Shown here: positions 11,180 to 30,388 of the stretch, in pieces
How positions within the stretch are numbered: the first letter of the stretch is position 1
Layout of the letters: each line of letters begins with the position of its first letter
From: Pannonibacter sp. SL95
Lineage (GTDB): Bacteria; Pseudomonadota; Alphaproteobacteria; Rhizobiales; Stappiaceae
Length of the DNA stretch: 64,000 nucleotides
Direction of reading: 5' to 3'
Assembly (NCBI RefSeq): GCF_026672425.1
Contig: NZ_JAPPRC010000003.1
Location: 1,036,501-1,100,500 of the forward strand
Position numbers and translations under genes: made by a program
The notes under the pieces: generated by a model
What the model was told of the DNA's origin: nothing
Databases searched by the model: none
What the model saw: only the letters and a program-made list of their open reading frames with translations

Positions 11180-11205
11180 AACGGGCTGACACCAGTCAGC
11201 CCGTT
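11180..11205 (-). terminator. Strong hairpin with U-tract; also contains the GCTGAC-N4-GTCAGC dyad
   Basis: On the minus strand an 11-bp perfect stem (AACGGGCTGAC and its complement) encloses a 4-base loop and is followed by TTGTTTTTT. This is a good intrinsic terminator for the fibre operon arriving from 11702. Its stem contains GCTGAC-ACCA-GTCAGC (11185-11200), the same half-sites and spacing as dyads at 22120 and 30373. It may therefore also mark the promoter of the sheath operon, which starts 72 bases on. A second looser copy with 6-base spacing lies at 11235-11252. Confidence 0.75.
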
Positions 11206-11324
11206 CTGCTGCAATCGATCATCAGTTGCGATGGGCTGACAATGCGGTCAGTTGTTGCCAAAATCAAGGGGCGTATGGCTATTGCCATCGATCAGCAACT
11301 CAACCTCAAAAAGGCCACCCCGGT

Positions 11325-11648
11325 ATGCGCCCAACAATCACCCTTGCTCTTGCTGCAGTTCTCGTCCCAACCCTGTCACATGCGAAAGATCCCGCAGTCG
11401 AGTTCGCTCGATTTTGGGGGGCAGTTCTCGCAATTGAAGACGCCTGCGAAGCATACGAGGTCAAGACTGACGCTGTTATGGGCAACCACCTTTCTGCGAG
11501 GGATTATGCTTACGCGGAGACGCTTGTCGAAAAGGAAAGGCTGTCGGCCGAGACGCTTGTTGCGACGCTTGGGTGTGACGAAGCCGCCAAGGACGTCCTG
11601 AGAATGACCGACCGCTCCTTCTTTGAGGTCTGGAACAAGCGCAAGTAG
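11325..11648 (+). CDS. Small exported protein, opposite-strand prophage cargo (moron-like)
   Basis: From ATG 11325 the product has 107 residues. It begins with a clear signal peptide (MRPTITLALAAVLVPTLSHA, probable cleavage after SHA). The mature part is helical and charged, with two cysteines, ending VWNKRK. It is the only plus-strand gene between the fibre and sheath operons and has its own downstream hairpin. That suggests expression from the lysogen independent of the late genes. No family was recognised. A periplasmic role affecting host or superinfecting phage is possible but not shown. Confidence 0.7.
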   Translation: MRPTITLALAAVLVPTLSHAKDPAVEFARFWGAVLAIEDACEAYEVKTDAVMGNHLSARDYAYAETLVEKERLSAETLVATLGCDEAAKDVLRMTDRSFFEVWNKRK

Positions 11649-11657
11649 TCTAGAAAT

Positions 11658-11679
11658 AAAGCCCGCCGAAGCGGGCTTT
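11658..11679 (+). terminator. Hairpin after the 11325-11648 gene
   Basis: AAAGCCCGC, loop CGAA, GCGGGCTTT forms a perfect 9-bp stem 10 bases after the stop codon. The T-tract is short on the plus strand and longer on the minus strand (TTTATTT). It may act in both directions, also ending transcripts of the fibre genes. Confidence 0.7.
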
Positions 11680-11701
11680 ACCAATTGAACAGGACAAATG
11701 T

Positions 11702-11938
11702 TCAAACCCGTTCCCGTCTCCCACGCGCGCTGTTGCCGCCCTCGTCGGTCTCGATCGCCGCGAGCCAGTGCCGGCGCAGGAGGGCCGGCCAGGGCACGCG
11801 TGCGGCCCAGCCTCCGGCAGCCAGGCTCTTGCCGATCCGGCCCGACAGGCTCTCGTCCGGGTCGCCGCCGATCAGCACGTTGGCGAGCTGCGACAGGGCG
11901 ACGTGCAGATTGTAGAGGTAATTGAGGATGGTGGTCAC
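11702..11938 (-). CDS. Small conserved phage protein, function unknown
   Basis: It encodes 78 residues starting MTTILNYLYNLHVALSQLANVLIGGDPDESLSGRIG in outline, then a tryptophan-rich AARVPWPALLRRHWLAAIE. This kind of short protein is often found beside tail fibre genes of proteobacterial prophages. Its ATG overlaps the stop of the upstream gene (11935-11938), so the two are coupled. No transmembrane segment is clear. The role is unassigned. Confidence 0.65.
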   Translation of the reverse strand: MTTILNYLYNLHVALSQLANVLIGGDPDESLSGRIGKSLAAGGWAARVPWPALLRRHWLAAIETDEGGNSARGRRERV

Positions 11939-12375
11939 AGCGGCGCTCCCGTGCCGATCTCGGCCGCGCGGGCCGGGGTGATCAGGTTTTCGGCGGCGAG
12001 ATACTCCAGCCCGTCCCGTGTCGACTGCCGCGTCACGTCGACCTCGGACAAGCGCGGATCTTCAAGGATGGTCAGCCAGTCAGAGATCACCGGATTGGTC
12101 GGCCGTGCCGCCCGGATTGCAACGCGCTCGGCCGCCGTGAACAGGAGCAAAAATTCGGGCGGCGTGAACACGGTCCGGCGCGGCACTGCGGTGGCCGGCG
12201 TCTCGGCCGGGGCCTCGGGAGCCGACCAGGTGCTGCCCTGTTTGCGCCAGCCGCGCTCGACCTGAGCCGGGACGCTGACAAACTGGCTCGCCACGTCCGG
12301 ATGGTAGAGGCCGGAAGGATCGGCGGCGGTGACGTCGACCGCGATGCCGTCGATGATGCGTGCAAATTTCGTCAT
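11935..12375 (-). CDS. Putative tail fibre assembly / tail-associated protein
   Basis: It encodes 146 residues. The start MTKFARIIDGIAVDVTAADP and the later QFVSVPAQVERGWRKQGSTW resemble the N-terminal part of phage proteins placed right after fibre genes, often annotated as fibre assembly or tail chaperones. The C-terminal half is helical (TPPEFLLLFTAAERVAIRAA). It lies one base after the glycine-rich fibre gene. The assignment is from position and weak resemblance. Confidence 0.6.
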   Translation of the reverse strand: MTKFARIIDGIAVDVTAADPSGLYHPDVASQFVSVPAQVERGWRKQGSTWSAPEAPAETPATAVPRRTVFTPPEFLLLFTAAERVAIRAARPTNPVISDWLTILEDPRLSEVDVTRQSTRDGLEYLAAENLITPARAAEIGTGAPL

Positions 12376-12376
12376 T

Positions 12377-13528
12377 TCACCACTCCACGATCACGAAGCC
12401 TGCGCCACCCGCGCCGCCATTGCTGGCTCCGGCTGCCATTGACGCACCACCGCCGCCGCCGCCGTGGCCGAACTGCGCGGCACCGCCAGCGCCACCAGCG
12501 TACGAGTTGCCACCGGCCCCACCGCCACCAGCGCCACCGCCACGCCCGAGGCCACCCGGATGCGGCGAATGCGACGTCGGCGCGCCCGAACCGCCGCCTG
12601 CGCCGCCGCCTGCCTCGGCCGTCCGTCCCGGCGCGCCGCTTGATGTAATGATGCCCCCCTCGCCACCGGAGGAGGTTTCGAGGTCCGTCTCGAAACGGGG
12701 GGAAAACGGACGGGTCGCCGAGATGCCCGCGCCACTCGACTGCAACGCGCCGTCCGCATTCGGGCCGGGCGTTGCCGTCGCGGTGCCGGGTCCGCCAACG
12801 CCGCCGCCTCCAGCTCCGTTGTAACTCGTCGCGGTGGTCAGGGTGCCGCCTGCATTGCCGGCTGCGCCACCGCCGCCGCCGCCGCCATTGTCGCCCTGGG
12901 CAGACAGCGCGCAGCCGTTGCCGCCCGCACCGCCGATGCCGAGCGGACCACCGGCCGCGCCGCCACCCGCGCCTGATCCGCCAGTGCCTGCGCCACCGTT
13001 GCCACCCGCGCCACCGGCCACGTTCATACCGCCACCTGACGACAGACCGCCTGCGCCGCCCGCGCCAGTGGTGATGCCGCCGACACCGCCAGCACCGCCT
13101 GTTACAGACAACATCGTCCCGAACGAGGAGGTGCCACCGGCCGTGCCGTTGCCACCAGCCGAACCGGCCGCGCCGCCCGCGCCAACCGTGACGCTCACGG
13201 CCTGGCCGGGCACCACGGTGTACACGCCCATCCCAAAGCCGCCGCCACCGCCGCCGCCGCCGCCACGGCGGTTACCGGAGCCACCGCCGCCACCGCCGCC
13301 ACCGCCGCCGCCACGGGCGCGCACGCGCACCGCGGTGACGCCCTCCGGCACCACGAATGTGCTGCTGTTGGTGATCACCCGGTACTGGCCGATGCCGAAC
13401 ACGTCCTGGCCGAGACTGGCCGTGCGCGTGATGGCGAGCAGCGAGACGCTGCCCGTCAGTGATCCGTTGCCCCCACTTGCGCGGCCGAGCTTGCCGCGCG
13501 GGAACCCGTTAAGGCCGAAGTTCGCCAT
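12377..13528 (-). CDS. Glycine-rich tail fibre / adhesin
   Basis: It encodes 383 residues. After a short head (MANFGLNGFPRGKLGRASGG) and a VRVRARGG start, residues about 70-375 are dominated by runs of glycine with Ala, Ser, Thr and Asn, for example a run of 11 glycines. Such Gly-rich domains form packed polyglycine-II helices in phage adhesins, such as the S16 gp38 tip, where loops between glycine strands contact the receptor. Here it sits among the fibre genes after the gpH-like protein. It is probably the receptor-binding tip and host-range determinant. The repeated GGN/GGC triplets on the minus strand may be prone to slippage. Confidence 0.8.
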   Translation of the reverse strand: MANFGLNGFPRGKLGRASGGNGSLTGSVSLLAITRTASLGQDVFGIGQYRVITNSSTFVVPEGVTAVRVRARGGGGGGGGGGGSGNRRGGGGGGGGGFGMGVYTVVPGQAVSVTVGAGGAAGSAGGNGTAGGTSSFGTMLSVTGGAGGVGGITTGAGGAGGLSSGGGMNVAGGAGGNGGAGTGGSGAGGGAAGGPLGIGGAGGNGCALSAQGDNGGGGGGGAAGNAGGTLTTATSYNGAGGGGVGGPGTATATPGPNADGALQSSGAGISATRPFSPRFETDLETSSGGEGGIITSSGAPGRTAEAGGGAGGGSGAPTSHSPHPGGLGRGGGAGGGGAGGNSYAGGAGGAAQFGHGGGGGGASMAAGASNGGAGGAGFVIVEW

Positions 13529-13929
13529 CAGAACTGCCCTCCAAACGCCATGACGTGGAACGTCTCCGCGACATGCGTGCAGGCCCGGAGCGAATGGCCG
13601 GCCGGCAGCACCAGGCCGTATGCCGAGCTCTCGCCGGTCGTAAAATCGATCACGGTTTCGAACGAGGCGACGGTGGCGCTGACGGTGATAGCCGGGACCG
13701 GGATCTCGGCGATGCAGCGCGCGGCCGTGCCGTCATGAATAAACAGCCGGAGCATGCCGGCCGTGGTGTTGCCGGTCGCCTTGAGCACCGCGCGGTCGAT
13801 CCGGCCACCGCCTGCCGGCAGCGTCAGGACCGTGGCGAGCGTGCCGGATCCGTCGCGGTTGGTGTTGGCTGTCGAGACGACGGCCGAGCCATAGAGCGGG
13901 GTGCCGGTGAATTGCGGAGATGCGGCCAT
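13528..13929 (-). CDS. Tail fibre-associated protein, unknown family
   Basis: It encodes 133 residues beginning MAASPQFTGTPLYGSAVVST. The sequence alternates hydrophobic and small polar residues (beta sandwich-like) with DGTAARCIAEIPVPAI in the middle and ends HVMAFGGQF. Its stop codon overlaps the next start at 13528. It lies between the gpH-like fibre and the glycine-rich adhesin, so a virion connector or decoration role is likely. No named domain was recognised. Confidence 0.62.
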   Translation of the reverse strand: MAASPQFTGTPLYGSAVVSTANTNRDGSGTLATVLTLPAGGGRIDRAVLKATGNTTAGMLRLFIHDGTAARCIAEIPVPAITVSATVASFETVIDFTTGESSAYGLVLPAGHSLRACTHVAETFHVMAFGGQF

Positions 13930-13938
13930 GTCGGGTCC

Positions 13939-14661
13939 TCACAACAGAGTTTCGAAACGGTAGATCACGTCGCCCTGCGGCGGCGGCAGCGCCGCCACGG
14001 CGGCATCGATCATGGATTTGACGCCGGCGGGGTGTGTGGCCTTTGTCGAGATTGTGCCGGCCAGGTGCTCGGGAGCGTTTGCCAGTTCCAGCGGATCGGG
14101 CAGGTTTTCGACCGCCGCGTTGATCATCGCCGCGACGCCGGCCGGGTGCGCTGTTTTGGTCGAGATTGTGCCGGCGAGGTGCTCGGGGATCGTCGCAAAC
14201 GATGGGATCCGCTGATCGACGTAGTCCTGCGTCGCCCAGCTGCCGGGGTGCGCGACCAGCGTCACCTGCGCAGTCTCGGAGACGACCAGGACCAGCTCGA
14301 TGGTCAGCGTCGTATCGACGCCCTGGGCCGTCGTGTTTTTCCGGGTGTCCGGATAGTCGGCGATGGCGACGAGCTGGCCGTTGCTGGCAAACAGCCCGAT
14401 CTCGCGGATCGTGAAGGGACCGGCATTGGCCGGGATCACCGCCGTGACGATGATGTAATTTGCATTTTGCGGATCGGTCAGAGCCGACTGGACGCCGGTG
14501 CGATAGACCTCGCGGACGAGCTGCGTCGCGGTCTCGACCGGGGTGATCGCCGCCCCGTTGCCATCGCCGACAGCAATTGCGGCGAGCGGCACAGCGGTGC
14601 CGCCCTGGGCGGCCGCCTGGGCAAACAGGGCCTGGCCCTGCAGTGTGACAATGACGCCCAT
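13939..14661 (-). CDS. Tail fibre protein (gpH-like, DUF3751-type N-terminus)
   Basis: It encodes 240 residues from the second of two adjacent ATGs. That ATG is best placed behind AGGAGG. The N-terminal region (MGVIVTLQGQALFAQAAAQG, then AIAVGDGNGAAITP and IREIGLFASNGQLVAIADYP) is the conserved baseplate-attachment domain of P2 gpH. After residue 160 two copies of APEHLAGTISTK..HPAGV occur, about 40 residues apart, a short fibre-shaft repeat. It is much shorter than P2 gpH (669), so the distal part is supplied by the following genes, including the glycine-rich protein. Confidence 0.85.
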   Translation of the reverse strand: MGVIVTLQGQALFAQAAAQGGTAVPLAAIAVGDGNGAAITPVETATQLVREVYRTGVQSALTDPQNANYIIVTAVIPANAGPFTIREIGLFASNGQLVAIADYPDTRKNTTAQGVDTTLTIELVLVVSETAQVTLVAHPGSWATQDYVDQRIPSFATIPEHLAGTISTKTAHPAGVAAMINAAVENLPDPLELANAPEHLAGTISTKATHPAGVKSMIDAAVAALPPPQGDVIYRFETLL

Positions 14662-15284
14662 CATGCGCCTCCTGCAATGCGGGTCGACTGGCGGACACGG
14701 ACCGCACCGCCGACGTGGATGTAAGGCCGCGCCTGGAGCGCGCCGGGGAGGATCGGACCGATGCGGGCGCGGCTGCGGATCGAGACCGACCCGCCGATAT
14801 AGAGCGGGGCCTCGTTTCGCCGGACGAGCCGGATCAGCTCCAGCCGCGAGCGGGTGTTTTTGGTCCGCAGCGCCAGGCGCGCCAGCATCTCGCCGGCCTC
14901 GCCCGTCCAGGGCTCGACCGGTCCGAGCGTCACGGTCAGGCGAAACCGGTAGGGAGAGCCGCCGTACTCGAACCACTCCTCGAGCGCGGCGGCATAGCCG
15001 GTCGCGGCGATCGCGGTCTGCACCGCCCAGGCGGTGCCCTTATGCCGGTGGACTTCGGGGGCCGCCTTGATCACTGCGCGCTGGACGGCCACTGGCCAGG
15101 CCGGATCCCACTCGTCGACCGACCAGGCCCAGGCGAGCAGCGGCAGCCAGGCGGGCGGGCAGAGATCTGGATCATGGACACGGCGGATGATGTCGACGTC
15201 GATTGCGCGGATCCGCTCCACATCAATCGCCGCTAACGCCTTGATCGGCTCGGGCGAGTTGCCGGGGACCGTGGGCGCACTCAT
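14661..15284 (-). CDS. I: Tail protein I (baseplate)
   Basis: It encodes 207 residues. The segment DLCPPAWLPLLAWAWSVDEW followed by HRHKGTAWAVQTAIAATGY is diagnostic of P2 gpI. GpI is a baseplate-edge component that carries the fibres. The ATG at 15284 shares its A with a TGA that would be the natural end of J if two frameshifts in J are corrected (see J). That supports the original J-I coupling. Confidence 0.92.
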   Translation of the reverse strand: MSAPTVPGNSPEPIKALAAIDVERIRAIDVDIIRRVHDPDLCPPAWLPLLAWAWSVDEWDPAWPVAVQRAVIKAAPEVHRHKGTAWAVQTAIAATGYAAALEEWFEYGGSPYRFRLTVTLGPVEPWTGEAGEMLARLALRTKNTRSRLELIRLVRRNEAPLYIGGSVSIRSRARIGPILPGALQARPYIHVGGAVRVRQSTRIAGGA

Positions 15285-15414
15285 CAGATCACCTCGACGG
15301 TGAGCGTGACGGCGGTGACGCGGGCGAGCTCCTTTGGACCAGGCAGCACGTCACTGACAACCTGGGTTAGCCGCCGTGATCACGATGTCAGCGTCCTCGA
15401 CCAGGGCGACAGCC
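15284..15414 (-). pseudogene. Displaced C-terminus of baseplate J
   Basis: No frame from J continues here, yet the sequence translates into a typical J end if two bases are skipped. After HVADAAG the +1 frame gives AVALVEDADIVITAAN, and the third frame gives TQVVSDVLPGPKELARVTAV and ends TVEVI-stop at 15284, overlapping the I start. One apparent extra base lies near 15412-15414 and another near 15369-15371. This is either two real frameshift mutations or two sequencing errors in a GC-rich stretch. Confidence 0.7.
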
Positions 15415-16299
15415 GGCCGCGTCGGCGACATGCACCGCCGCAGCGATGGCCGTATCGGAGAGCATGCGGGCGATGCCGCGCCGGCTCGCCAGATAGGCAG
15501 TCAGGCGGGCCAGGGCGAGGGTCCGCAGCGTCGACGGATCCGGACCGCGCGGCATTTTGAGCGTGACGCTGATCGTGCAATCCAGCGTCGAGCAGGCCTC
15601 AATGATCACCCGGTCCGTGAGCGGGCGCAGTTTCTGGCGGCGGGTCAGGGCGCGGACACGCGGGCTGCCGACCGCATAGCGGATCAGCCCGGCGTCGAGA
15701 AACTCGGCCATGGCATCGAGCACGGCCGGCGTCGGCACGCCGTCGCCCTGGCTGGAGGCAACGACGATGAGCGCCTCGCCGTCATTGGCAAGACCCGAGT
15801 GCGGGTCATAGACCGCCACATCGAGCACGTGCGGATGCGCGGCGAGCCCGAAAAACAGATAGGCCCCGTCGGGACCAGCGGTCGAGAACGCCTCTATCGC
15901 GAGCTGCCGGCGACGGCGCAGGCTCTCGTCGCTCTCCATGATGGCAGGGGTCGGCGGTGTCGTTGCCGGGTCGGCCGGGACCAGCACCTGACGCACAACG
16001 CCGAGATCGGCCGCGCGCTGCTCGAGATCCGCGCCGCGCGCAAACGCCAGATGCGTCGCCTTGACCGCGTCATTGACAGCAGCCATCAGCTGCACCTCAA
16101 AAAACGCGCCATGCTGCAACAGGATCGCGGCCGGATCGCTGTCGATCGTGCCGACATCGAAGGGCTGGCCTGCCTCATCCATGCGGGCAACAAAGTCGGC
16201 CAAGCGCTGTTGAAATGCCGCCTCATGGTCGAGCGGCTGCAAGGCATCGGGAGCCGGCAGACGGGAGAGATCGATGTCGACAAACCGGCTGGTCATCAC
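15388..16299 (-). CDS. J: Baseplate protein J, C-terminus frameshifted
   Basis: The open frame has 303 residues. It begins MMTSRFVDIDLSRLPAPDAL and has the Baseplate_J landmarks DLEQRAADLGVVRQVLVPAD, an ESDESLRRRRQLAIEAFSTA motif and PHVLDVAVYDPHSGLANDGE. P2 gpJ forms the baseplate wedge. The last 8 residues (CRPGRGR) do not belong to the family. The expected ending lies in the other frames between 15284 and 15414. The gene overlaps W by one ATGA. If the shifts are real, this prophage is probably unable to build a normal baseplate. Confidence 0.88.
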   Translation of the reverse strand: MMTSRFVDIDLSRLPAPDALQPLDHEAAFQQRLADFVARMDEAGQPFDVGTIDSDPAAILLQHGAFFEVQLMAAVNDAVKATHLAFARGADLEQRAADLGVVRQVLVPADPATTPPTPAIMESDESLRRRRQLAIEAFSTAGPDGAYLFFGLAAHPHVLDVAVYDPHSGLANDGEALIVVASSQGDGVPTPAVLDAMAEFLDAGLIRYAVGSPRVRALTRRQKLRPLTDRVIIEACSTLDCTISVTLKMPRGPDPSTLRTLALARLTAYLASRRGIARMLSDTAIAAAVHVADAAGCRPGRGR

Positions 16300-16682
16300 G
16301 CGCCTCCGCCCGCAATCGCGCCGAACGGCACCGCGATCGAGTAGTCGTTAAACCGGCCGTGCGGGTAATAGAGACCGCCATGCCGGATACCGAGGACGCC
16401 GGTCTCCGTCAGCCGGACGAGCTGCAGCGATGTGATCGCCGCCTCCGGCTCATGCCGGGCAGCAGAGGCAACCATCTCGCTGTAGATCTGCAATGCGATC
16501 GCGGGCGTCAGATCCTCGCCGAGCGCCGAGCGCAGGTCAGCGCCGTAGGTCAGCCGCATCAGCCGCGATCCGGGGCGCGTTGCCCAGATCCGGCCGAGCG
16601 ACTGGATCAGATGCGGCAGGCCGGTGAGCGGCTGCAGCGTCCGCTCATTGAGGCCCTTCCGATATCTGATTGCGCCTGCCAT
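16296..16682 (-). CDS. W: Baseplate protein W (gp25-like, lysozyme-fold wedge)
   Basis: It encodes 128 residues. LGRIWATRPGSRLMRLTYGA followed by DLRSALGED is the core of the GPW/gp25 family. W is a baseplate wedge component shared by P2 and T4 (gp25). The stop overlaps the start of J. It ends FGAIAGGGA. Confidence 0.92.
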   Translation of the reverse strand: MAGAIRYRKGLNERTLQPLTGLPHLIQSLGRIWATRPGSRLMRLTYGADLRSALGEDLTPAIALQIYSEMVASAARHEPEAAITSLQLVRLTETGVLGIRHGGLYYPHGRFNDYSIAVPFGAIAGGGA

Positions 16683-16726
16683 TTAATGCCTCATCAAAGC
16701 TCGATCACGTGGGGTTTCAGGAGCTG

Positions 16727-16924
16727 TTAAACAGCCGGCCGGATGTGCAGGGCGATCAGTTCGGAGCGCGCCTGGTCCTCGGTCAGCTGCAAGATTTCGC
16801 CTGCGGCAACGCGCCGGCCGGCAACGCGCGGCGGCGCTGTGTCAGTCACGATGTAATCAGCAACGCCGGCCGGGGCGGGGCTGACAGGTGCAGGGGTGAC
16901 GGGCTCAGGGGACTTGCGGGTCAT
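16727..16924 (-). CDS. Small tail-module protein of unknown function
   Basis: It encodes 65 residues with a proline-rich head (MTRKSPEPVTPAPVSPAPAG). A compact part follows, ending VAAGEILQLTEDQARSELIA, that resembles the short domain seen in small tail/head accessory proteins with a G-E-x-hydrophobic-x-L-T pattern. It sits between V and W, where P2-like modules often carry a small extra gene. No function is known. Confidence 0.6.
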   Translation of the reverse strand: MTRKSPEPVTPAPVSPAPAGVADYIVTDTAPPRVAGRRVAAGEILQLTEDQARSELIALHIRPAV

Positions 16925-16961
16925 GGGTCAATACCTCTCGGTTTAGAGTGCGAATGGTCTC

Positions 16962-17495
16962 TCAGGCGGGTGGGCCAGTGAGCATGGGGCCAGGCGTGAT
17001 GTCCTTGTGTTTGTGCAAGTAGCCGGTGTCCACGCCGTTGTGCGTGACGTGGCTGCCTTCGATGTCGACGGCACCGTCGATCTTGACCGGCCCGACCAGG
17101 CGGATCTTGTCGGAGATCTCGATCCGGACATCGCCGCGCGCGATCACCGTGGTGTCGCTGGCCGTCGACGGGGCGGGATGGTCGCGGTCAAATGTGGCGG
17201 GCACGGCAATCGAGGCGGTGCCGATGGTGCCGGAGCCGGAGACCAGCCGCATCTGCTCGCCGATGGCCGGCTCGCTGTGGATCGACAGCGCGCCGACGCC
17301 GGGCTCCTGCCAGCGCACCCAGGGCGATAGCACCGGCCGGCCCTTGGCATCCTGGCCGAGTTTGAGCCGCAGGCGGCGCTTGGCCGGATCGACTTCGTGC
17401 ACCTTGCCGGTGAGGTCGGCCATGGCCAGCCGGCGCTCGATCGTCGCCATCGCCGCTGCCTGCCGGCGCAGCGCCAGGGCGTAGGGATCACGCAT
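16962..17495 (-). CDS. V: Baseplate assembly protein V (central spike)
   Basis: It encodes 177 residues from ATG 17495, which overlaps the end of the upstream gene. Residues about 25-90 form the OB domain (ADLTGKVHEVDPAKRRLRLK, then WVRWQEPGVGALSIHSEPAI and GEQMRLVSGSGTIGTASI). The C-terminus ends with HVTHNGVDTGYLHKHKDITP. The HxH motif near the C-terminus is the iron-binding tip of P2 gpV spikes. It forms the membrane-piercing trimer. A P2 tail gene here marks the join between Mu-type head genes and the P2-type tail module. Confidence 0.93.
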   Translation of the reverse strand: MRDPYALALRRQAAAMATIERRLAMADLTGKVHEVDPAKRRLRLKLGQDAKGRPVLSPWVRWQEPGVGALSIHSEPAIGEQMRLVSGSGTIGTASIAVPATFDRDHPAPSTASDTTVIARGDVRIEISDKIRLVGPVKIDGAVDIEGSHVTHNGVDTGYLHKHKDITPGPMLTGPPA

Positions 17496-18138
17496 CGCCG
17501 GCCTCGCTGTCATCGCTGTCCGGCACCTGCCGCGCCGGGATAAAGCGGGCGAGCTCGGCGAGATCCGCCGCAGTGTCATAGAGGATCAGCCCGGAGGCCT
17601 CGTCATAGCTGCCGGTCGCATCGGGCAGGATCGGCGCTCCGAGGTCGGCGATCACCTGCGTCCACGTCACCGCGTAGTACACCGTGCCCTGGGCCTGATC
17701 GCGGACCGTGAACATGGGCTTGAGCTCGGGCAGCGGCGAGGTCTCGGGCGGCAGGATCCCGGTGAGGCCCCAGGTGCTGGTCTCCATGTCGCCGAGGATC
17801 GCAAGCAGCCGCGAGCCGATGGCGAGGCCGACGGCCTCTTTTTCAACGCGCCGGCTGGCGACCACGCGGGCCTCGGCGACGACATAGGCGACCCACTCGA
17901 CGGCCAGGCAAAACGCGCCATCGACCATCGCGGTCTCGCGAATGCGGGTAAATCCGATGCCGACGCCGGGGGCCTGGACGACCGTCCTGGCGACGAGCTC
18001 CGAGATGTCGACCTTGCCCGGATGCGCCACGACGGAGACGCCGGTGATCAGCTCGCCGACGCGGCGCACGATGGCCGTCTGCGTCTGCGCCAGGCTGTCG
18101 GTTGCAATCAGGGTTTCGAGGGGTACCGGTGCGATCAC
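17488..18138 (-). CDS. Mu gp37-like protein (tail terminator position)
   Basis: It encodes 216 residues from a GTG at 18138 that overlaps the stop of gene G and follows GGAGG. It begins MIAPVPLETLIATDSLAQTQ and continues VVAHPGKVDISELVARTVVQ. DGAFCLAVEWVAYVVAEARV follows at about residue 75. This matches the Mu gp37 family, which sits after gp36/G in Mu and is thought to finish the tail end. It lies directly before the P2-type spike gene V. Confidence 0.78.
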   Translation of the reverse strand: MIAPVPLETLIATDSLAQTQTAIVRRVGELITGVSVVAHPGKVDISELVARTVVQAPGVGIGFTRIRETAMVDGAFCLAVEWVAYVVAEARVVASRRVEKEAVGLAIGSRLLAILGDMETSTWGLTGILPPETSPLPELKPMFTVRDQAQGTVYYAVTWTQVIADLGAPILPDATGSYDEASGLILYDTAADLAELARFIPARQVPDSDDSEAGDA

Positions 18139-21097: not shown

Positions 21098-21568
21098 TCA
21101 GGCAGCGGTCAGGCCATTGGCCTTGCGGTACTCGTCCTCGCTCAGACCCATCTGGCGCATGACCTCGCGATCCTCCGCGCTCAGGGTGGCGAGATCACCG
21201 GTCAGCTCACCGGCCGGGACCGTCTGGGCGTCGAGACGCGAGGGCGTCAGGGCCGCACCGAAAGTCTCGAGCAGCGCCTCGACCTGGGCGAGCCCCTCGG
21301 GCGTGGCGCAGAGCGCCTCATAGGCGGCACGCTGGGCCGGGACGATTTTGCGGGCCTTCAGCGCGCCCTCAAGCGTCGCGGCAACCTTGGCGTCATGCGC
21401 CGCCTTGTCGCGGGCTGCCAGGTCGGCCGTGAGCTGCGCGCAGCGCGCCAGCGCCTCGGCATGGACGGCCGGATCAACGCGGGCCTTGAGCGTGGTGATT
21501 GCCGAGAGGCAGGACGTTTCACCGGCATCGGGACTGAGGCCGAGGGCGAGGGCAATTTCCTTGGGCAT
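21098..21568 (-). CDS. Z: Nested scaffold protein Z (internal start in I)
   Basis: An ATG at 21568 is in frame inside I, preceded at 8 bases by a perfect AGGAG. It starts a 156-residue product (MPKEIALALGLSPDAGE...) corresponding to the helical, charged scaffold part after a Pro/Ala-rich linker. Mu I/Z uses the same in-frame nested design, with Z as the scaffold. The internal ribosome site is visible in the sequence; expression is inferred. Confidence 0.75.
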   Translation of the reverse strand: MPKEIALALGLSPDAGETSCLSAITTLKARVDPAVHAEALARCAQLTADLAARDKAAHDAKVAATLEGALKARKIVPAQRAAYEALCATPEGLAQVEALLETFGAALTPSRLDAQTVPAGELTGDLATLSAEDREVMRQMGLSEDEYRKANGLTAA

Positions 21569-22084
21569 GTTGTGCTCCTGAGGTGAGGGATCAGCCGAGG
21601 CAACGGCGGGCATGGACACGGCCGGGGCCGCAACCAGGGCGGCCGAATGCAGCCAGATCGCCCGCTTGGTATCGTCGAGCTGCAGGACCGGCGAAATGTA
21701 GCGGTGGGTGCGGGCGGTGAGGATGCGCAGGCCCTCATCGAGCCAGTCGACCGCGCCATAGAGACCATCGGCGCGGGCTTCGAGCTGCGTTACCCAGCCG
21801 ACAGCCGGAGCAGCCTCGCCGGCAGCTGCCCGTCTGACCGTCGCATGATCGAGATCGATCGGCAGATGGACGCCATCTGCAGCAAACCGCGCGACCAGCA
21901 CCTCCGGGTCGACATCGAACACACGGCCGTCGCGCGCGGTGAACCGGCCGCGCGGCGCGATCTTGATCGATGCCGGTCCGGCCTGCCGGGCAACCGCATC
22001 CGGGTCGGCGGCGAATGCGTCGACGACCGTCAGGCCGGATGCCATTTCGGCGGAGAGGCAGTGGAGGGAGCGCGGTGTCATCAT
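21098..22084 (-). CDS. I: Mu I-type prohead protease
   Basis: It encodes 328 residues. The N-terminal protease domain includes RGRFTARDGRVFDVDPEVLV, LPIDLDHATVRRAAAGEAAP and VGWVTQLEARADGLYGAVDW, then a YISPVLQLDD stretch, as in Mu gene I (pfam10123). The C-terminal half is a helical scaffold region that is also made alone from an internal start (Z). The protease matures the prohead and removes scaffold. A 16-bp dyad (22120-22135) lies 36 bases before the start and may be the site of a late activator (compare PI of Mu). Confidence 0.9.
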   Translation of the reverse strand: MMTPRSLHCLSAEMASGLTVVDAFAADPDAVARQAGPASIKIAPRGRFTARDGRVFDVDPEVLVARFAADGVHLPIDLDHATVRRAAAGEAAPAVGWVTQLEARADGLYGAVDWLDEGLRILTARTHRYISPVLQLDDTKRAIWLHSAALVAAPAVSMPAVASADPSPQEHNMPKEIALALGLSPDAGETSCLSAITTLKARVDPAVHAEALARCAQLTADLAARDKAAHDAKVAATLEGALKARKIVPAQRAAYEALCATPEGLAQVEALLETFGAALTPSRLDAQTVPAGELTGDLATLSAEDREVMRQMGLSEDEYRKANGLTAA

Positions 22085-22119
22085 GCGGCGACAGTGCCAC
22101 GCGACACGGCAAGCGCCTG

Positions 22120-22135
22120 GCTGACAGCTGTCAGC
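22120..22135. promoter_or_regulatory. 16-bp dyad GCTGAC-AGCT-GTCAGC upstream of protease/head operon
   Basis: This perfect palindrome is centred about 43 bases before the I start. An identical 16-mer lies before the endolysin gene (30373-30388), and one with the same half-sites and spacing lies before the sheath gene (11185-11200). In Mu, the late activator C binds before lys, I and P. Recurrence at equivalent places suggests an activator site for the Mor-type protein encoded here. Confidence 0.65.
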
Positions 22136-22815: not shown

Positions 22816-22846
22816 TGTGTTGGTGGCAGCTTGCTATTCTGCAGTA

Positions 22847-22926: not shown

Positions 22927-22941
22927 GTTTATCCCTTACCG

Positions 22942-24186
22942 TCAGTCCCAGGGCCAGCTCAGGCCAGCGCGCGTGATCTGCTTGCGCAGCTCGCTCTCGC
23001 CCTTTTGGTGCAGCGAGTTGGCGCGTAAATAGCCGTTGGCCGAAACCGCCACAAACGACCGCCAGATCGTCTTTCCGATCCGGTGCAGGACCGTGCGAAC
23101 ACGGGTGTCTCCACCGATGTCAGGCAGGATTGCACCCTCGGTCAGGATCTGCGGCAGCAACGCAAAGTCATCGACTGACATTTTGTGCCGCTCGATCCGG
23201 ACCGTGATCGCCTCGCTGGTGATCGAGATCACCGGCGACACAGCCCCGAGCTCGGCCGCCAGGGCCGGATTGTGCCCGGCCGGCAACCAGACTTTTTCCG
23301 GCAGCAGCGGCGCGAGCCGCAAATAGGGATCAGCCCAGAGCTCGGTCAGCACGCGATTTGCGTCGACCGGCGCGGCCTCGGCGAGCTGCGCCTCCAGATT
23401 GGCGATCAGCGTCGACGCGCGGGCGAGGCCCGGATTGGTGTGCCAGCCCGGATCGATGCCGGCCGGGATGCTGGACCGCTCGCCCGTGCGGCGGTTGATG
23501 ACGTCAACCGGAGGGCCGAGATCTGGCGCAGTGTCACGGTACTCGATCGTGATGTCGGAGCCGTCCGGGTTGCGGCCGATGACACGCGTTGTGCCGATGA
23601 GGCGCTCGGCCTCTCGCGCCGAGATCATCCGCACCTGGCATTTGCAGCCCCAGCCGTTGGGCGGCCAGTAGCTGCGCCAGAACGGGTGATCGACCGGCAG
23701 GATGGTGCCGACCAGGGCGCGGTGTTCGGGCCGGGGATCGCTGCTCGTCGTTGCCACATAGAGCGCATAGGGGAGGATTTTTTTCGACCGCTGCGCGCGC
23801 TCCCATTGCCCGGCCGAGCGGGCGGAATTGACGTTCGACCAGAATATGGTCTTGGGCCGGCGCGGGTTGGAGAAATCCACCCGCACCGGGTCATCCTGGC
23901 CGGTCGGGTCCATGACCAGGCGCGGCCCCCACCAGCCGAGTTTCGTCAGCTCCGCCTGGATCAGCGGCCGCCAGCTGTCGATGCCTTGGCCATCGGAGAG
24001 CGCCTGCGAGATCGTGCGACGAAACGCGTTGAGGAGATCAAGTTCGGTCGCCTTGGCGACGGTAAAGCGATACGCGTGCTCCTCGGCCCAGACGTCGAGC
24101 CAGGAGAACGCCGGCCGGTTGCTCTTGCCGTCGAAATAGCCGGTCACCTCGGGAGGGGGCGCAAAGCCGCGCGTGGGGCTTGGCAT
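22942..24186 (-). CDS. F: Head morphogenesis protein F (gp30)
   Basis: It encodes 414 residues. The start MPSPTRGFAPPPEVTGYFDG and WLDVWAEEHAYRFTVAKATE lead into the Mu F / SPP1 gp7 core (ARSAGQWERAQRSKKILPYA, then RPEHRALVGTILPVDHPFWR and NGWGCKCQVRMISAREAERL). Mu F is a minor capsid protein that enters the prohead with the portal. The C-terminal part, after residue 290, contains a GDTRVRTVLHRIG segment of unknown role. The gene abuts the portal gene (overlap at 24186). Confidence 0.92.
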   Translation of the reverse strand: MPSPTRGFAPPPEVTGYFDGKSNRPAFSWLDVWAEEHAYRFTVAKATELDLLNAFRRTISQALSDGQGIDSWRPLIQAELTKLGWWGPRLVMDPTGQDDPVRVDFSNPRRPKTIFWSNVNSARSAGQWERAQRSKKILPYALYVATTSSDPRPEHRALVGTILPVDHPFWRSYWPPNGWGCKCQVRMISAREAERLIGTTRVIGRNPDGSDITIEYRDTAPDLGPPVDVINRRTGERSSIPAGIDPGWHTNPGLARASTLIANLEAQLAEAAPVDANRVLTELWADPYLRLAPLLPEKVWLPAGHNPALAAELGAVSPVISITSEAITVRIERHKMSVDDFALLPQILTEGAILPDIGGDTRVRTVLHRIGKTIWRSFVAVSANGYLRANSLHQKGESELRKQITRAGLSWPWD

Positions 24187-25898
24187 CAGTCGGCCAGGTC
24201 GCCGATGCCACGCGCGATCGCGGTGAGCGGGCCGAGCCTCTCGGCGAGTTTTGCCGCGTCCGGAAGCCGGGTTTCAAGCATCGTTAACGCCTCTTCTAGC
24301 GAGCCAGCCTCGCGGATGATCGCGGCGAGCGGCGCGAGCAGCGGATCGGAAACAGCCTGCCAGTCGTCCATGGCTCCGGCGAACAGCGCGTCGACCTCGG
24401 CCATGGCGTCTGGCTGGCCAGCCTCGGCACTCAGCAGTGCGGTGCAGGCTGCGCAGGCGCAGGACCGTTTGTGGTCGGAGACGATCGCCGCAAGCGCCGC
24501 CTGGCGCTGGTCCTGTTCCTTGGCTGGGGCCTCCTTGTCCGATGGCTTCTCGCCGGGCTTTTCCCTGGCGGGGTCGGACTTGGCGGGGTCGGCCTTGGCC
24601 GGCGCACTCTCCGCCTTGTCGGCCGAGGTGCCGGCCGGTGCCGGGGGCGCGCTGGGGGCCGGGGCCGCGAGCAGCTCGTCGTCGTCGGACGGATCGGAAA
24701 GGCCCAGTTTCTCGCGGATCTCGCCCTGGGCGACCTTGAACCCCAGCGGAACGAGGATGCCCAGGCTCTCGGCCAGCGCCTTGACGTCCTCGGGATCCGG
24801 GACAGGCAGCTCGAGGAGCGGATAGACCTCCTGCGGACCGAAATTGAGGTCGACAAACGGACGGATCAGATCGCGGTTGAACGTCGCCGCAAGCTGGCGG
24901 CAGTCGGCGCGCAGGATGTCGAGGCGCACCTCGTTGTGGATCTTTGCTTGTCCGAGCGACGAGCCGTTGTCGCTGGTCATCGTCTGGCCGAGGATCAGCT
25001 TGGAGATCTGCGCGTCGATGTATTCGAGCAAGCCTGAAAACACCGCAGATCCGTTCGCGCCGTTGACCTCATGAAACTCGATCTCCATCCCGGCCGGGAT
25101 GATGGCTGCCGCGTCATTGGCGATGGACGCCACAGCCCGCAACAGCGTGCGTTTATCCTCCGGGCTGGCAGCCGCGTTGTACTTGCCGACGCGCAGCGGC
25201 ATCCCGTAAACCTCCGAGAATGCCGCCCAGTCCTGGGCCGTAAACTGGTGGATCAGATAGCCCCAGGCAGCAGGCCTCGCCATGCCACGCCGCAACGGTA
25301 GCCCAAGGCGGGTGCGCGGCATGTGCCGCAGGAACTTTGCCTCCGGCAGCGGTTCGCCCTCGACAGAGCCTTCGACTTCGAGCCGCAGCGTGCGCAGGGT
25401 CAGATCGTCAAACCGGAAAAATCGCGGGTCGCGGTCGACATAGGCGACCGGCCGCAGCGCGCCGCGCTCGTACTCCCACATCATTTCAGAGACCGCGTAG
25501 CCCTTTGCGATCCCGTCGGGCAAATGATCGCGCGCGTCCTCGAACCCGGCATCCTCGATCAGGCTGTTGACGGCATCGACGATCCGCGCCGGCACGCCCT
25601 CGCTCTCGATGGTGAAATCGACAGAGCGGATCGCCAGACGGCGCGTCTGCAGCTGCGACGCGTAATGGAGGTATCGCTCCTCCATCTCCTCGGCGAGGGT
25701 CAGGTAGGCGCGGCCGAAGCCCTTGGCAGCGTCCCGCAGGATCGTGCCGAGCCGCTCCGGCGTGAGGTCCGCAGCGACACGGTCTTCGTGCGTGCGACGG
25801 ACGCCGGCGACCGTCGGCGTGGCGACTTCCTTGGCCAGCTCGGAAACCACAATTGGCTCACCGTCAGGTCCAAGGATCCTGCTCTTGCGGGTTACCAA
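24186..25898 (-). CDS. Portal protein (Mu gp29, DUF935)
   Basis: It encodes 570 residues. The DUF935 portal core spans about residues 45-400 (AYLTLAEEMEERYLHYASQL, SEMMWEYERGALRPV, YLIHQFTAQDWAAFSEVYGM, LGQAKIHNEVRLDILRADCR). It is followed by a long Ala/Pro/Lys-rich linker (about 415-480) and a helical C-terminal domain with two cysteines (CACAAC). The portal is the dodecameric DNA gate of the capsid. The order gp27-gp28-gp29-F is as in Mu. The linker region is longer than usual. Confidence 0.93.
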   Translation of the reverse strand: MVTRKSRILGPDGEPIVVSELAKEVATPTVAGVRRTHEDRVAADLTPERLGTILRDAAKGFGRAYLTLAEEMEERYLHYASQLQTRRLAIRSVDFTIESEGVPARIVDAVNSLIEDAGFEDARDHLPDGIAKGYAVSEMMWEYERGALRPVAYVDRDPRFFRFDDLTLRTLRLEVEGSVEGEPLPEAKFLRHMPRTRLGLPLRRGMARPAAWGYLIHQFTAQDWAAFSEVYGMPLRVGKYNAAASPEDKRTLLRAVASIANDAAAIIPAGMEIEFHEVNGANGSAVFSGLLEYIDAQISKLILGQTMTSDNGSSLGQAKIHNEVRLDILRADCRQLAATFNRDLIRPFVDLNFGPQEVYPLLELPVPDPEDVKALAESLGILVPLGFKVAQGEIREKLGLSDPSDDDELLAAPAPSAPPAPAGTSADKAESAPAKADPAKSDPAREKPGEKPSDKEAPAKEQDQRQAALAAIVSDHKRSCACAACTALLSAEAGQPDAMAEVDALFAGAMDDWQAVSDPLLAPLAAIIREAGSLEEALTMLETRLPDAAKLAERLGPLTAIARGIGDLAD

Positions 25899-27319
25899 TG
25901 CTTCCTCCCAAAACTGGATCCGGTGTTGTCATCATCATCGTCGTCGTCGAAACCGGATCGGCCGAGGCTGCGCACTGACTGGTACGCGTACTGCATCGGC
26001 TGTACTCCAGCCGCCTGGAGCGCGAGCGCCAAGGCCCAGAACCGGTCCGCGTGCCCGTCCGGCGTGCGCTCGGCCGTGAACCGGACATTGCCGGCAGCAG
26101 TGACCTGCTTCGTCACTGACCTGAGGTCGGCGCGAATGTCGCGATCATAGGGGATGCGCAAGCGCCGCTCCTCCATGTGCGACCGGACCGGATAGGCCAG
26201 GGCCTCCTTGACGCGGGTCGTGAAGGTGACCGCCTCCACCGCATAGTCGCCGAACTTTGCCTGCGCATCGTCTGCCCAGCCGATGCCGAGACCGGTGGCG
26301 TCGACACAGGACCGAACGCACCGGTCCAGCCAGGGCCACAAAACCTTTTCCTGATCCGGCTTGCTCATGTTGCGCATGGTTTCGACATGGCGCGTGTAGA
26401 GGACGTCGCCGAGGCGCTCGAGGATCCAGATGACGGTCAGGTCCTTTTTGCGGCCGATGTCGATGCCGGCATAGAGCTGCCGTCCCTCAATCGTTGTCCA
26501 GGCGGTGCCCTCCGGGTACTCGCAGGCAGCGATCAGGTCGTATTCCAGAAACGCGGCATCGTCGTCGGCCGGCTGGCACATGTACTCCTGAAGAAAGCTC
26601 TCCTCGTCGGCGGTGCCGGATTTGACCCAGTTGAAATAGTCCGCCTCGTCCATCTCCTGCCGTTCATCATCGGCAGGCAGGGACTGCTGCAGCTTCCAAA
26701 GGAAACCGTCGGCGAGCGCATCTTCCAGCGTCACGCGGTGCAGGCTGATCTTCTTGGGATTGCCCTTTTCACGCGCTTCGCGGATCAGCTGATTGAAGAA
26801 ATTACGGCTGCCGCGATGCGTGGAGATCACCTCCATCGCGCCGCCCCAGGTAATGCCGGGATAGGCAATCGACCACAGCTTGCGCGGATCCGGATGCAGC
26901 GCAAACTCGTCGAGCACACGGCCGCCGCGCTTGCCGGCCTGGGCGTCCGGATTGGAGCTCATCGAATGGATGCGCTTGCCGTTGGCAAATCGCAGCACAT
27001 AGGCGCTGTGCTTGCCTTCAGGATCGAGCGCGACCTCGCCCAGGTCCCGCGCGGCAAGGTCCAGGTTTCCGGACCAGAGCTTGCAATCCTCCAGAAACAG
27101 CCGCGCCTGAATGTCGTCCCGCGACGAAACCCATTGGTCATTCCGGGCCGTCGCCAGCGCCGTACGCGAGACCGTCGCATAGGCAGTCGACCAGGACAGG
27201 CCGATCTGACGGCCCTTTTCCATCAGCTTCAGGCGCGACTGATCCAGCACCCAGCGACTTTGATAGGGCAGGAAAATCGCGGCCGTGTTCTCAGGGATGA
27301 TCCGCGCACGGCCCATCAC
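25892..27319 (-). CDS. Terminase large subunit (Mu gp28)
   Basis: It encodes 475 residues. An ATPase part has the adenine/Walker-A-like GRQIGLSW at 36-43 and VLDE at 135-138. A nuclease part opens with GIDIGRKKD at 285-293. This is the gp28-type motor that packages Mu DNA by a headful process from host-linked ends. The C-terminus ends in a run of seven aspartates, encoded by simple GAT/GAC repeats. The start lies within the end of the gp27-like gene (two ATGs, 27319 and 27316) and the stop overlaps the portal start. Confidence 0.94.
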   Translation of the reverse strand: MMGRARIIPENTAAIFLPYQSRWVLDQSRLKLMEKGRQIGLSWSTAYATVSRTALATARNDQWVSSRDDIQARLFLEDCKLWSGNLDLAARDLGEVALDPEGKHSAYVLRFANGKRIHSMSSNPDAQAGKRGGRVLDEFALHPDPRKLWSIAYPGITWGGAMEVISTHRGSRNFFNQLIREAREKGNPKKISLHRVTLEDALADGFLWKLQQSLPADDERQEMDEADYFNWVKSGTADEESFLQEYMCQPADDDAAFLEYDLIAACEYPEGTAWTTIEGRQLYAGIDIGRKKDLTVIWILERLGDVLYTRHVETMRNMSKPDQEKVLWPWLDRCVRSCVDATGLGIGWADDAQAKFGDYAVEAVTFTTRVKEALAYPVRSHMEERRLRIPYDRDIRADLRSVTKQVTAAGNVRFTAERTPDGHADRFWALALALQAAGVQPMQYAYQSVRSLGRSGFDDDDDDDNTGSSFGRKHW

Positions 27320-28745: not shown

Positions 28746-29013
28746 TCGGTGGTCCTCCAGATGCCGCGACAGCGGCCGCGCGGCGGGTCTCACATGTGCG
28801 TAGTGCCGTGCGATCGCGGCCCCACAAATCAGCGGTCTCGCGCTCGCCCAGGCGCCGGTCTGGCAGCGGCACCGGCGCGGCGCAGGGCACGATCGCGACG
28901 GCCGGTAGCTCGCGCTCGACCAGTGCGGTTTGCAGGATCGGGCTATCTGCCGTTGAGCAGCCGGACGCGATCACGGCCGCGGCCACACTCCGGGCTCGCA
29001 GGCAGCTCCGCAT
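28735..29013 (-). CDS. Rz1: Outer-membrane spanin lipoprotein (Rz1-like)
   Basis: From ATG 29013 the product has 92 residues. It has a signal sequence MRSCLRARSVAAAVIASGC ending in a lipobox (VIASGC, lipidated C19). A Pro/Arg-rich mature part follows. It overlaps the end of the Rz-like gene in another frame, the typical Rz/Rz1 arrangement. Rz and Rz1 join inner and outer membranes to finish lysis. Confidence 0.82.
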   Translation of the reverse strand: MRSCLRARSVAAAVIASGCSTADSPILQTALVERELPAVAIVPCAAPVPLPDRRLGERETADLWGRDRTALRTCETRRAAAVAASGGPPNAG

Positions 29014-29308
29014 TGGCTCTCTCCAGTTCAGCGGCTCGGGCATCGGCGGCGGCAATCTGATCGCGGGCGGTTGCCTCGGCTGCCATGGTGCGGCGGAGCG
29101 CGTCGGCGATGGCCTGAGCCGTGCGAGCCTCGGCGGCCTGGATCTCGGCGCGCCAATGAGCATCGCGCTCGCTGATGGCGGAGGCCCTGACGATCTCGAT
29201 CAGGGCGTTGACCTGGCGCAGGCTCTGCCAGCCGACCAGGGCGATGGCGAGGACGAGCGTCCCCGCGAGGATGAAGCCGACCATGCGGCCACTCACGAGC
29301 GACATCAT
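28943..29308 (-). CDS. Rz: Inner-membrane spanin (Rz-like)
   Basis: It encodes 121 residues. There is one N-terminal transmembrane anchor (GFILAGTLVLAIALVGWQSL), then a long Ala/Glu/Arg-rich periplasmic coiled coil (about 35-105). This is the i-spanin layout. The end of its frame contains the start of the Rz1-like gene. The ATG overlaps the putative holin stop, so holin, Rz and Rz1 are translated together. Confidence 0.84.
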   Translation of the reverse strand: MMSLVSGRMVGFILAGTLVLAIALVGWQSLRQVNALIEIVRASAISERDAHWRAEIQAAEARTAQAIADALRRTMAAEATARDQIAAADARAAELERANAELPASPECGRGRDRVRLLNGR

Positions 29309-29571
29309 GCGCCGGCCTCCGGGTCTGCGCGCGGATCATAGGCCCGGCTCGCCTGGGCGGCCGCGCGGTAGTCCAGCGAACCAAAGGCGCGATGCAGACC
29401 GAGGATCGCGACGATCATCGCCACCATGGACGGGAGGGCGACCGCGCCGAATGCGACGGCGGTCTCGACGCCAGCAACAGCGCCAACGGTGAGCGCCAGG
29501 ATCACGACCCAGGCGAGGACCATCGACGCCCAAAGCGCTTGTTTGGAGGTGCGGTAAGCGGGGCGGTTCAT
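29305..29571 (-). CDS. Two-helix membrane protein, putative holin
   Basis: From ATG 29571 the product has 88 residues. Two membrane segments (ALWASMVLAWVVILALTVGA and VAFGAVALPSMVAMIVAIL) are joined by a short turn, with a charged C-terminus. Size, topology and place directly after the endolysin and before Rz/Rz1 fit a class II holin. No family match was recognised, so the name is positional. Confidence 0.7.
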   Translation of the reverse strand: MNRPAYRTSKQALWASMVLAWVVILALTVGAVAGVETAVAFGAVALPSMVAMIVAILGLHRAFGSLDYRAAAQASRAYDPRADPEAGA

Positions 29572-29576
29572 GGCAG

Positions 29577-30299
29577 TCACCGCTGATAGTTTTCGAGGGC
29601 AGAGAACGGCGGACGCCCGTTGAGCGCGAGGCGCATCTCGTTGCGCGTCTGCGGACCGACGACGCCGTCGGCCACGATCTGGCGCTCGCGCTGGAATGCC
29701 AGCGTCTCGGCCTCTACAGCATGACCAAACAGGTCGTCTGGATCCTGGCTGCTCAGCAGCGGGCTCGGTTGATTGCGGTTCTCGCGCCACGTGATGAGCT
29801 GATCGCGCCAGGATTGAGCAAACTGGCCGGCGTCGCCCCGCTGCAGGAGGTGATCGACAATTGGCTTAAAGAGGCGTTCTCGTCCCTCGAACAGATGATC
29901 ATACTCGGCCGACGCGTCGAAGCTCGGGCAGGCCTTGGCAGCGTATTCGTTGTGACCGGAGATCTTGCGAATGTTGAAACGGTCGCGCAGCTCCATCAGC
30001 TCGGCCGCGAGGGCGCGCCGCTGTGCCGGGGTCCGCGTGTCCTTCGGTGTCCGACCATCGGCGGCGAGGCCACCCACATAAACGACGCCAATCGTGCCGG
30101 TGTTGTGTCCAGCACAATGCGCGCCGACGGCAGACAACGGACGGCCGGCCAGGCGCGCGCCGGTGATGTCGATCACCCGGTGATAGCCGATGCCGGACCA
30201 GCCCCGCGCGCGGTGCCAGGCGTCGATTTCCGCGACGCTGACCGGCCGGCCTTCCGGCGTCGCGGTGCAGTGGACGATGATTTCGTTGATGGGGCGCAC
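29577..30299 (-). CDS. Endolysin: N-acetylmuramoyl-L-alanine amidase with peptidoglycan-binding tail
   Basis: The start is GTG 30299, which follows AGGAG at 9 bases. It gives 240 residues beginning MRPINEIIVHCTATPEG. A TTG at 30344 would add 15 residues without family support. The amidase_2 domain shows likely zinc ligands in IVHCTAT, GYHRVID/HCAGHN and the KACPSFD motif. The C-terminal 60 residues contain ADGVVGPQTRNEMRLAL, a peptidoglycan-binding or Gly-x-x-Thr helix motif. It lyses the cell wall after holin action. A 16-bp dyad lies about 80 bases upstream. Confidence 0.92.
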   Translation of the reverse strand: MRPINEIIVHCTATPEGRPVSVAEIDAWHRARGWSGIGYHRVIDITGARLAGRPLSAVGAHCAGHNTGTIGVVYVGGLAADGRTPKDTRTPAQRRALAAELMELRDRFNIRKISGHNEYAAKACPSFDASAEYDHLFEGRERLFKPIVDHLLQRGDAGQFAQSWRDQLITWRENRNQPSPLLSSQDPDDLFGHAVEAETLAFQRERQIVADGVVGPQTRNEMRLALNGRPPFSALENYQR

Positions 30300-30372
30300 G
30301 GGCGGAGCTCCTGTCGGGCCGGTGGATCGGCGAACGTGGAGCAACTCTGCGGTGCGGGGGGGATTTCAGCGG

Positions 30373-30388
30373 GCTGACAGCTGTCAGC
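30373..30388. promoter_or_regulatory. 16-bp dyad GCTGAC-AGCT-GTCAGC upstream of lysis operon
   Basis: It is identical to the palindrome at 22120-22135. It lies in the 120-base gap between the Mor-type gene (ends 30421) and the endolysin start (30299). In Mu the equivalent gap holds Plys, bound by C. It is a candidate activator site, with no binding data. Confidence 0.65.

Follow-up and report, generated by a model that had tools for sequence, protein, structure and literature searches.

What switches on the late genes of a Mu-like prophage in which a single activator gene of the Mor/C type was found? The question is raised by a 64-kb window (64,000 nucleotides, the whole stretch analysed) from the genome of Pannonibacter sp. 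SL95, which contains a Mu-like prophage with its late genes on the minus strand in the order C-type gene, amidase, portal, F, protease and sheath. The lysis, protease/head and sheath/tail operons of this prophage are each preceded by a copy of the same 16-bp palindrome (dyad), GCTGAC-N4-GTCAGC. Judging from sequence comparison, we consider it highly probable that the three dyads are the sites at which the dimeric C protein (gene at 30421-30843) would act, at about -44 of three late promoters, and that the protease mRNA is leaderless.

In the proposed mechanism, C would be made before the late genes and, being encoded just ahead of the lysis genes, would turn on the lysis, protease/head and sheath/tail operons at once. 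A C dimer would bind each dyad about 44 bp upstream of the late start point, where the bound activator would replace the -35 box of a promoter with a weak -10 element (CANNNT or TANNNT), as at Mor/C promoters. The protease transcript would start on the ATG itself or no more than about one base away, giving leaderless translation. The sites, their positions, the -10 spacing, the missing Shine-Dalgarno motif and the covariation with the C helix come directly from the comparison, and from these we infer dimer binding, activation, start points, operon extents and the timing of C.

Dyad copies in the window, the genome and related prophages

An exact search of the window returned three copies of the dyad and no fourth (11185-11200, GCTGACACCAGTCAGC; 22120-22135 and 30373-30388, both GCTGACAGCTGTCAGC), with the same half-sites and spacing and at the places where a sequence-only reading of this DNA had put them. 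Under independent base frequencies, 0.007 copies would be expected per 64 kb and 0.59 per 5.04 Mb, and this was the sole 6-bp half-site with a 4-bp spacer found three times in the window. When other spacers (0-12) were tried, half-sites seen at least three times lay mostly inside a 227-bp tandem repeat at about 52.7-53.3 kb; for TGGCCA-N6, another such half-site, two of the matches overlap. The repeat itself (window 52740-53340, three copies of approximately 227 bp) carries many short palindromes (e.g. GCCGACAGGGATCGGC).

The whole 5.04-Mb genome holds eight copies of the dyad: the three in the window prophage, three in a second Mu-like prophage on the same contig, and two within reading frames matching transporter families, one an ABC permease (PF00528) and the other MFS (PF07690). 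The earlier concern that the dyad might be frequent elsewhere in the host genome was thus not borne out, six of the eight copies being in prophages. The second prophage (G000:C3:785000-825000; L032 and L052) aligns piecewise with the window prophage at 90-94% identity, and its dyads (G000:C3:787460, 795922 and 808219) occupy the same three places. The C proteins of the two prophages are 98% identical, and each would be expected to read the sites of the other.

Related loci were collected by searching the genomes of the family with the C protein (matches in 20 of 87) and by searching wider sets with a profile built from 22 C-type proteins (43 of 397 genomes in the order, 23 of 385 in the class, and 5 of 20 and 15 of 149 in two further families, the sets overlapping), and stretches around most of these matches were used. 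An initial scan, in which viral contigs were searched with the window C protein, brought up no relative. Among 100 C matches in the loci searched, 55 loci had a C gene and a protease I gene on one piece and in the same orientation (the downstream C gene was taken where there were two), including the window, a Shinella locus (L005) and Ochrobactrum phage POA1180 (L006). Each was tested for a perfect dyad (half-site 5, spacer 0-6) with identical letters and spacing at both places, i.e. in a stretch spanning the C stop codon (30 bp upstream to 200 bp downstream of it) and in 270 bp around the protease start. Such a dyad was found in 37 of the 55 prophages, whereas random windows drawn from these loci predict 1.0 (an earlier, smaller set gave 29 of 39, with 0.51 predicted). 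In these 37, the motif search in related transposable prophages that had been suggested as a check recovered a dyad that recurs within the phage after C and before I. Since the 37 contain close relatives, lineage counts are based on the 28 clusters that they form at 70% C identity.

The half-sites vary between phages but are constant within a phage (GCTGACA, GGTAACA, GGTGAACC, CCCGACA, GCTGCA, GCGACGC and others), and in cross pairs the C-side dyad was matched by the I region of another phage in 9.7%, relatives sharing half-sites included. The dyad centre is even in 32 of the 37 and odd in five (L006, which is POA1180, L040, L044, L047 and L048), and the C proteins of all five have a gap of nine alignment columns between their two domains. 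When up to 40 kb per relative was scanned for its own dyad, exact copies lay mostly at lys, I and sheath, with a copy at most 400 bp before the sheath gene in 17 of the 23 phages whose sheath gene could be located (that of L089 was placed by arithmetic, its sheath start sitting on the next piece). Copies at further places were seen in L086 (two, sheath unlocated), L092 (one), L106 (one) and L129 (two), the I site of the last deviating from its exact consensus. In a second set from IMG/VR, which is not independent of the first (seven members are near-identical and some are close to the first set), the shared dyad was present in 18 of 19.

The C protein and its recognition helix

The window C protein matched the late transcriptional activator family phrog_836 (E 5e-22), as did 20 of 20 homologues, and hhalign aligned it to Mu Mor/C with a probability of 92% (E 5e-7); Pfam Mor (PF08765) was matched by 19 of 22 homologues at E<=0.01. 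The predicted structure (mean pLDDT 83.6, pTM 0.58) has helices at residues 109-116 and 120-139 that resemble a helix-turn-helix, and a Foldseek search gave no match at E<=0.001. The protein is likely to belong to the Mor/C family and to work like Mu C. The genome has two C-type genes, one per prophage, and a second Mor/C-type gene was found in neither, in agreement with the single such gene noted by the sequence-only reading.

Two tandem C-type genes were observed in one group of Mu-like prophages, with CTGACG-N2-CGTCAG and TGACA-N2-TGTCA between them, their centres 16 bp apart (L035:11755-11783, L036:17108-17136, L037:2760-2788 and L038:2992-3020) and present nowhere else in the fetched pieces. 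The arrangement is suggestive of a Mor-to-C cascade, in which the second activator would be turned on by the first.

C is named as the binder because the bases of the half-site covary with its recognition helix. When every protein column was paired with every half-site base, the six strongest associations all fell in this helix (residues numbered as in the window protein): base -5 with residue 121 (z 11.2), -3 with 125 (9.5), -2 with 125 (7.6), -7 with 120 (7.1), -6 with 124 (7.0) and -7 with 124 (6.6); pairs outside the helix reached z values up to 5.7. Residues 120-125 begin the last predicted helix. The rule linking residue 121 to base -5 fits all 37 phages, with G accompanying Arg121 in 32 of 32, A accompanying Gln or Leu in three and C accompanying Ser or Asp in two. 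The rule linking residue 125 to base -3 fits 36 of 37, with C (G on the other strand) accompanying Arg125 in 30 of 31 and A accompanying Tyr, Lys or Met in six. The window protein has Arg at both residues.

In a tree built from the N-terminal domain alone, residue 121 shows four changes between Arg and another residue, alongside four base changes, with four joint, while residue 125 shows five residue changes and six base changes, with six joint; the covariation also holds within the sister pairs L068/L069 and L045/L046, the latter combining Arg with the natural site TGACA in L045 and Gln with TAACA in L046. In partial Mantel tests, site distance was correlated with helix distance given the N-terminal domain (r 0.44, permutation p 0.0005), compared to 0.07 for site against N-terminal domain given the helix; this p value is not corrected for the tree, and the parsimony counts serve as the tree-aware check. 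A hand count in the IMG/VR set gave 18 of 18 for the 121 rule and 17 of 18 for the 125 rule (the exception being L176), where only L176 and L187 are informative, the others having Arg at both residues.

The same data make it reasonably probable that alphaproteobacterial Mu-like phages constitute a large, naturally occurring collection of co-evolved activator-promoter pairs, in which each C would serve one private dyad and be re-specified by two or three helix residues (121 reading -5 and 125 reading -3), with the geometry and the leaderless protease mRNA fixed in most. No description of such sites in these phages was found in the literature searched, including the accessible portions of PMC4287176, PMC4461284, PMC5492332, PMC9936078, PMC4378225, PMC10783043 and PMC5488378. 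A little-known phage protein and three palindromes would become a complete, testable late-gene switch, and the residue-base pairing would provide a readable recognition code for Mor/C-like activators. Transcript starts would be predictable nearly to the base, late operons could be found in many Mu-like prophages by sequence alone, and the fixed ATG position predicts that the head protease is expressed leaderless.

Promoter geometry and other explanations of the dyads

A -10-like A..T pair lies at positions 33-38 from the dyad centre, at lys and I alike (A33..T37 or A34..T38), and is present in 25 of the 28 cluster representatives at lys and in 25 of 28 at I. At other offsets the pair was seen in a mean of 1.9 (lys) and 1.5 (I) representatives, with maxima of 7 and 5, respectively. 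The corresponding hexamers of the window, CAGAGT at lys, CACTGT at I and TACTCT at the sheath site, are all at positions 32-37. With a normal gap of 6 bp after the hexamer, the start point would fall at position 44, which places the dyad centre near -44. Relative to such start points, the dyads would have the position and the fixed-distance -10 of Mu-type C promoters.

The in-frame ATG of the protease is 43-45 bp from the dyad centre, i.e. at the predicted start point, in 32 of the 37 phages. A Shine-Dalgarno-like motif precedes this ATG in one of 23 cluster representatives and is missing in the window, compared to 32 of 44 portal starts and 13 of 21 sheath starts (both without cluster reduction) and 11% of random positions. 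Since the ATG coincides with the predicted start and the motif is missing, the protease I mRNA is probably leaderless. For the amidase of the window, the GTG at 30299, preceded by AGGAG, is the preferred start codon, as the TTG at 30344 that begins the listed reading frame is upstream of the predicted transcript start.

The sequence-only reading had remarked that the 11185 copy is also a piece of a terminator hairpin, and the minus strand indeed has a stem of 12 pairs there, with GTTTTTTGCG behind it. A dual role of the dyad as terminator and C site, at the window sheath and at lys and I of some relatives, is a serious possibility, though one we lean slightly against. A hairpin with a T-run is present at the sheath sites of the window prophage, its two close relatives and POA1180, T-runs occur at both lys and I in L041, L045, L046, L080, L091, L133 and L135, and most of those T-run sites also have a -10-like hexamer at the right distance. 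The T-runs could, however, simply be promoter spacer: Mu lys and mom have a common six-T stretch in their promoter spacers (accessible text of PMC4461284), so a T-run does not necessarily mark a terminator. In addition, a terminator scan of 8000-27000 gave 7 sites compared to a shuffle mean of 8.8, i.e. no excess.

It is very unlikely that the dyads are merely intrinsic terminators, their sequence shared through copying of one terminator. They do lie between operons, and behind the dyad a T-rich stretch is seen in 10 of the 37 phages at lys and in 10 at I. The other 27 in each set, which include both the lys and the I copy of the window, have none. A terminator, moreover, need not keep a constant spacing to any -10 or ATG downstream of it, nor would it have to covary with the helix of C. 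A separate late-strand hairpin with a T-rich tail (11658-11679, recognised by eye and absent from the list of the terminator scan) is already present upstream of the sheath site.

Just as improbable is a different binder, such as the prophage repressor, a host regulator or, for the tail operon, an activator of the P2 type (Ogr). Palindromes fit many dimeric regulators, and Escherichia phage P88, a phage of the P2 type, is among those matched by the sheath protein; against this stand the rarity of the dyad outside prophages and its covariation with the recognition helix of C, which extends to the sister pairs. Regulation by P2 Ogr/Delta was considered and rejected, as a genome search for Ogr_Delta (PF04606) at E<=0.001 came back empty. 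Coincidence, or the recent duplication of a single sequence inside the prophage, in line with the identity of two of the three window copies across 16 bp, can practically be dismissed given the 0.007 copies expected and the occupation of the same places in phages with approximately 30% identical protease, some with different half-sites.

Binding of the dyads by C is thus the preferred reading, and the proposal that a single activator serves the late operons through one site is strengthened by the shared dyad within each phage, the fixed geometry and the covariation with the C helix. Several results, however, weigh against it, besides the sheath hairpin and the T-rich stretches described above. 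The window C protein scored 18.6 bits with Pfam Mor, under the cut-off of 24.9, a Pfam Mor search of its own genome gave no match at E<=0.001, and no Mor structure was among the best 50 listed of the 111 Foldseek matches. No perfect shared dyad was found in 18 of the 55 prophages, and a looser dyad search in these 18 gave no best score above the highest of its controls (its best I window was 44 bp before an in-frame ATG in six, L049, L077, L078, L102, L118 and L130, and 45, 46 and 47 bp before the ATG in L039, L131 and L121, respectively, none of which is counted as evidence). An exact sheath copy is missing in 6 of the 23 phages (L041, L045, L046, L080, L088 and L092), and the protease ATG is elsewhere in 5 of 37 (L088, 40 bp; L110, 87 bp; L092, 98 bp; L113, 151 bp; L108, 161 bp). 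Finally, the exact shared-dyad test applied to Mu (lys against I) found nothing at half-site length 4 or 5, which means that the test misses the imperfect sites of Mu.

The features of the window prophage are collected in the table. A small, moron-like frame (window 11226-11648, plus strand) was also observed on the opposite strand, between the end of the tail-fibre gene and the sheath promoter.

Table. Coordinates of the predicted late-gene control elements and associated genes in the window
Feature	Position	Strand	Basis or remark
C-type late activator gene, 140 aa	30421..30843	-	phrog_836, hhalign, model, covariation
Dyad GCTGACAGCTGTCAGC, putative C site of lys promoter	30373..30388	-	32 bp past C stop codon
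-10-like hexamer CAGAGT, putative lys promoter	30344..30349	-	predicted start ~30337
Lysis gene, N-acetylmuramoyl-L-alanine amidase	29577..30299	-	Amidase_2 E 1.9e-11, phrog_822
Dyad GCTGACAGCTGTCAGC, putative C site of protease I promoter	22120..22135	-	
-10-like hexamer CACTGT, putative protease I promoter	22091..22096	-	predicted start 22084 = A of protease ATG
Protease I gene, first of head operon	21098..22084	-	Mu-like_Pro E 5.6e-47
Dyad GCTGACTGGTGTCAGC (minus strand), putative C site of sheath promoter; also terminator-like hairpin core	11185..11200	-	
12-pair hairpin then GTTTTTTGCG	11179..11206	-	terminator-like, or T-rich promoter spacer
-10-like hexamer TACTCT, putative sheath promoter	11156..11161	-	predicted start ~11149
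Tail sheath gene, first after third dyad	9857..11113	-	phrog_23 tail sheath E 3e-51

Comparison with Mu and other phages

The closest parallel is Mu C, whose gene is likewise directly upstream of lys. It too serves several late operons, has sites ahead of both lys and I, and works with non-consensus -10 elements (PMC4461284). The half-site letters differ, the dyads of the window are perfect and detectable by symmetry whereas those of Mu are imperfect, and here a site precedes the sheath gene and the protease ATG is at the predicted start. The suggestion that the dyads lie where Mu has its late promoters therefore holds for lys and I and fails for the sheath, as the C promoters named for Mu are lys, I, P and mom (PMC4461284). 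Among the three window copies, none is ahead of P or mom, by an exact-match search that leaves weaker sites possible.

The description of the dyads as unrelated to Mu sites is likewise correct for the letters and not for the geometry. At Mu Pm, Mor uses a 16-bp dyad from -51 to -36, centred at -43.5, with no -35 element (PMC4287176), and the 16-bp dyad of the window would be centred at about -44. Mor serves the middle promoter of Mu, whereas neither prophage here has yielded a second Mor/C-type gene. In P2-type phages, the late operons are turned on by Ogr/Delta activators, which differs from the present case in that no Ogr_Delta gene was found in this genome.

A similar arrangement is seen in Ochrobactrum phage POA1180, which is isolated and inducible. 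Its C gene is 38% identical, and TGACANTGTCA occurs three times in 41.7 kb, ahead of endolysin, protease and sheath. The POA1180 dyad differs in being one base shorter (TGACA-N1-TGTCA), in a phage whose C protein is one of those without the nine inter-domain columns. No mention of a promoter, activator or palindromes was found in the main text of the 2017 paper on this phage.

The exact shared-dyad test was also run on five other phage records. None was found in RC1 or vB_PeaS-P1, and MuM16-2 had one length-4 match that was apparently due to chance. In vB_PeaS-P1, a near-identical, non-palindromic stretch was observed by eye at both places. The length-4 dyad CAAC-N2-GTTG of vB_ThpS-P1, one of three such matches, is centred 45 bp before I. 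Although vB_ThpS-P1 and vB_PeaS-P1 are stated to be without Mor (PMC5488378, accessible text), genes matching PHROG 836 (E 1e-19) precede the amidases in both (L159:26254-26643 and L160:26748-27191, respectively). These matches and the short dyad of vB_ThpS-P1 suggest that the two phages probably carry a distant activator of the C type.

Alteromonadaceae phage B23 (L161) gave the sole length-5 match of the five, with the end of its C gene guessed. CCTGAA-N4-TTCAGG is found at 17836-17851, its centre 44 bp ahead of the annotated protease I start, and the same half-site and spacing recur near 10240, ahead of a small gene that precedes a transglycosylase gene. From B23, the layout may reach beyond the Alphaproteobacteria.

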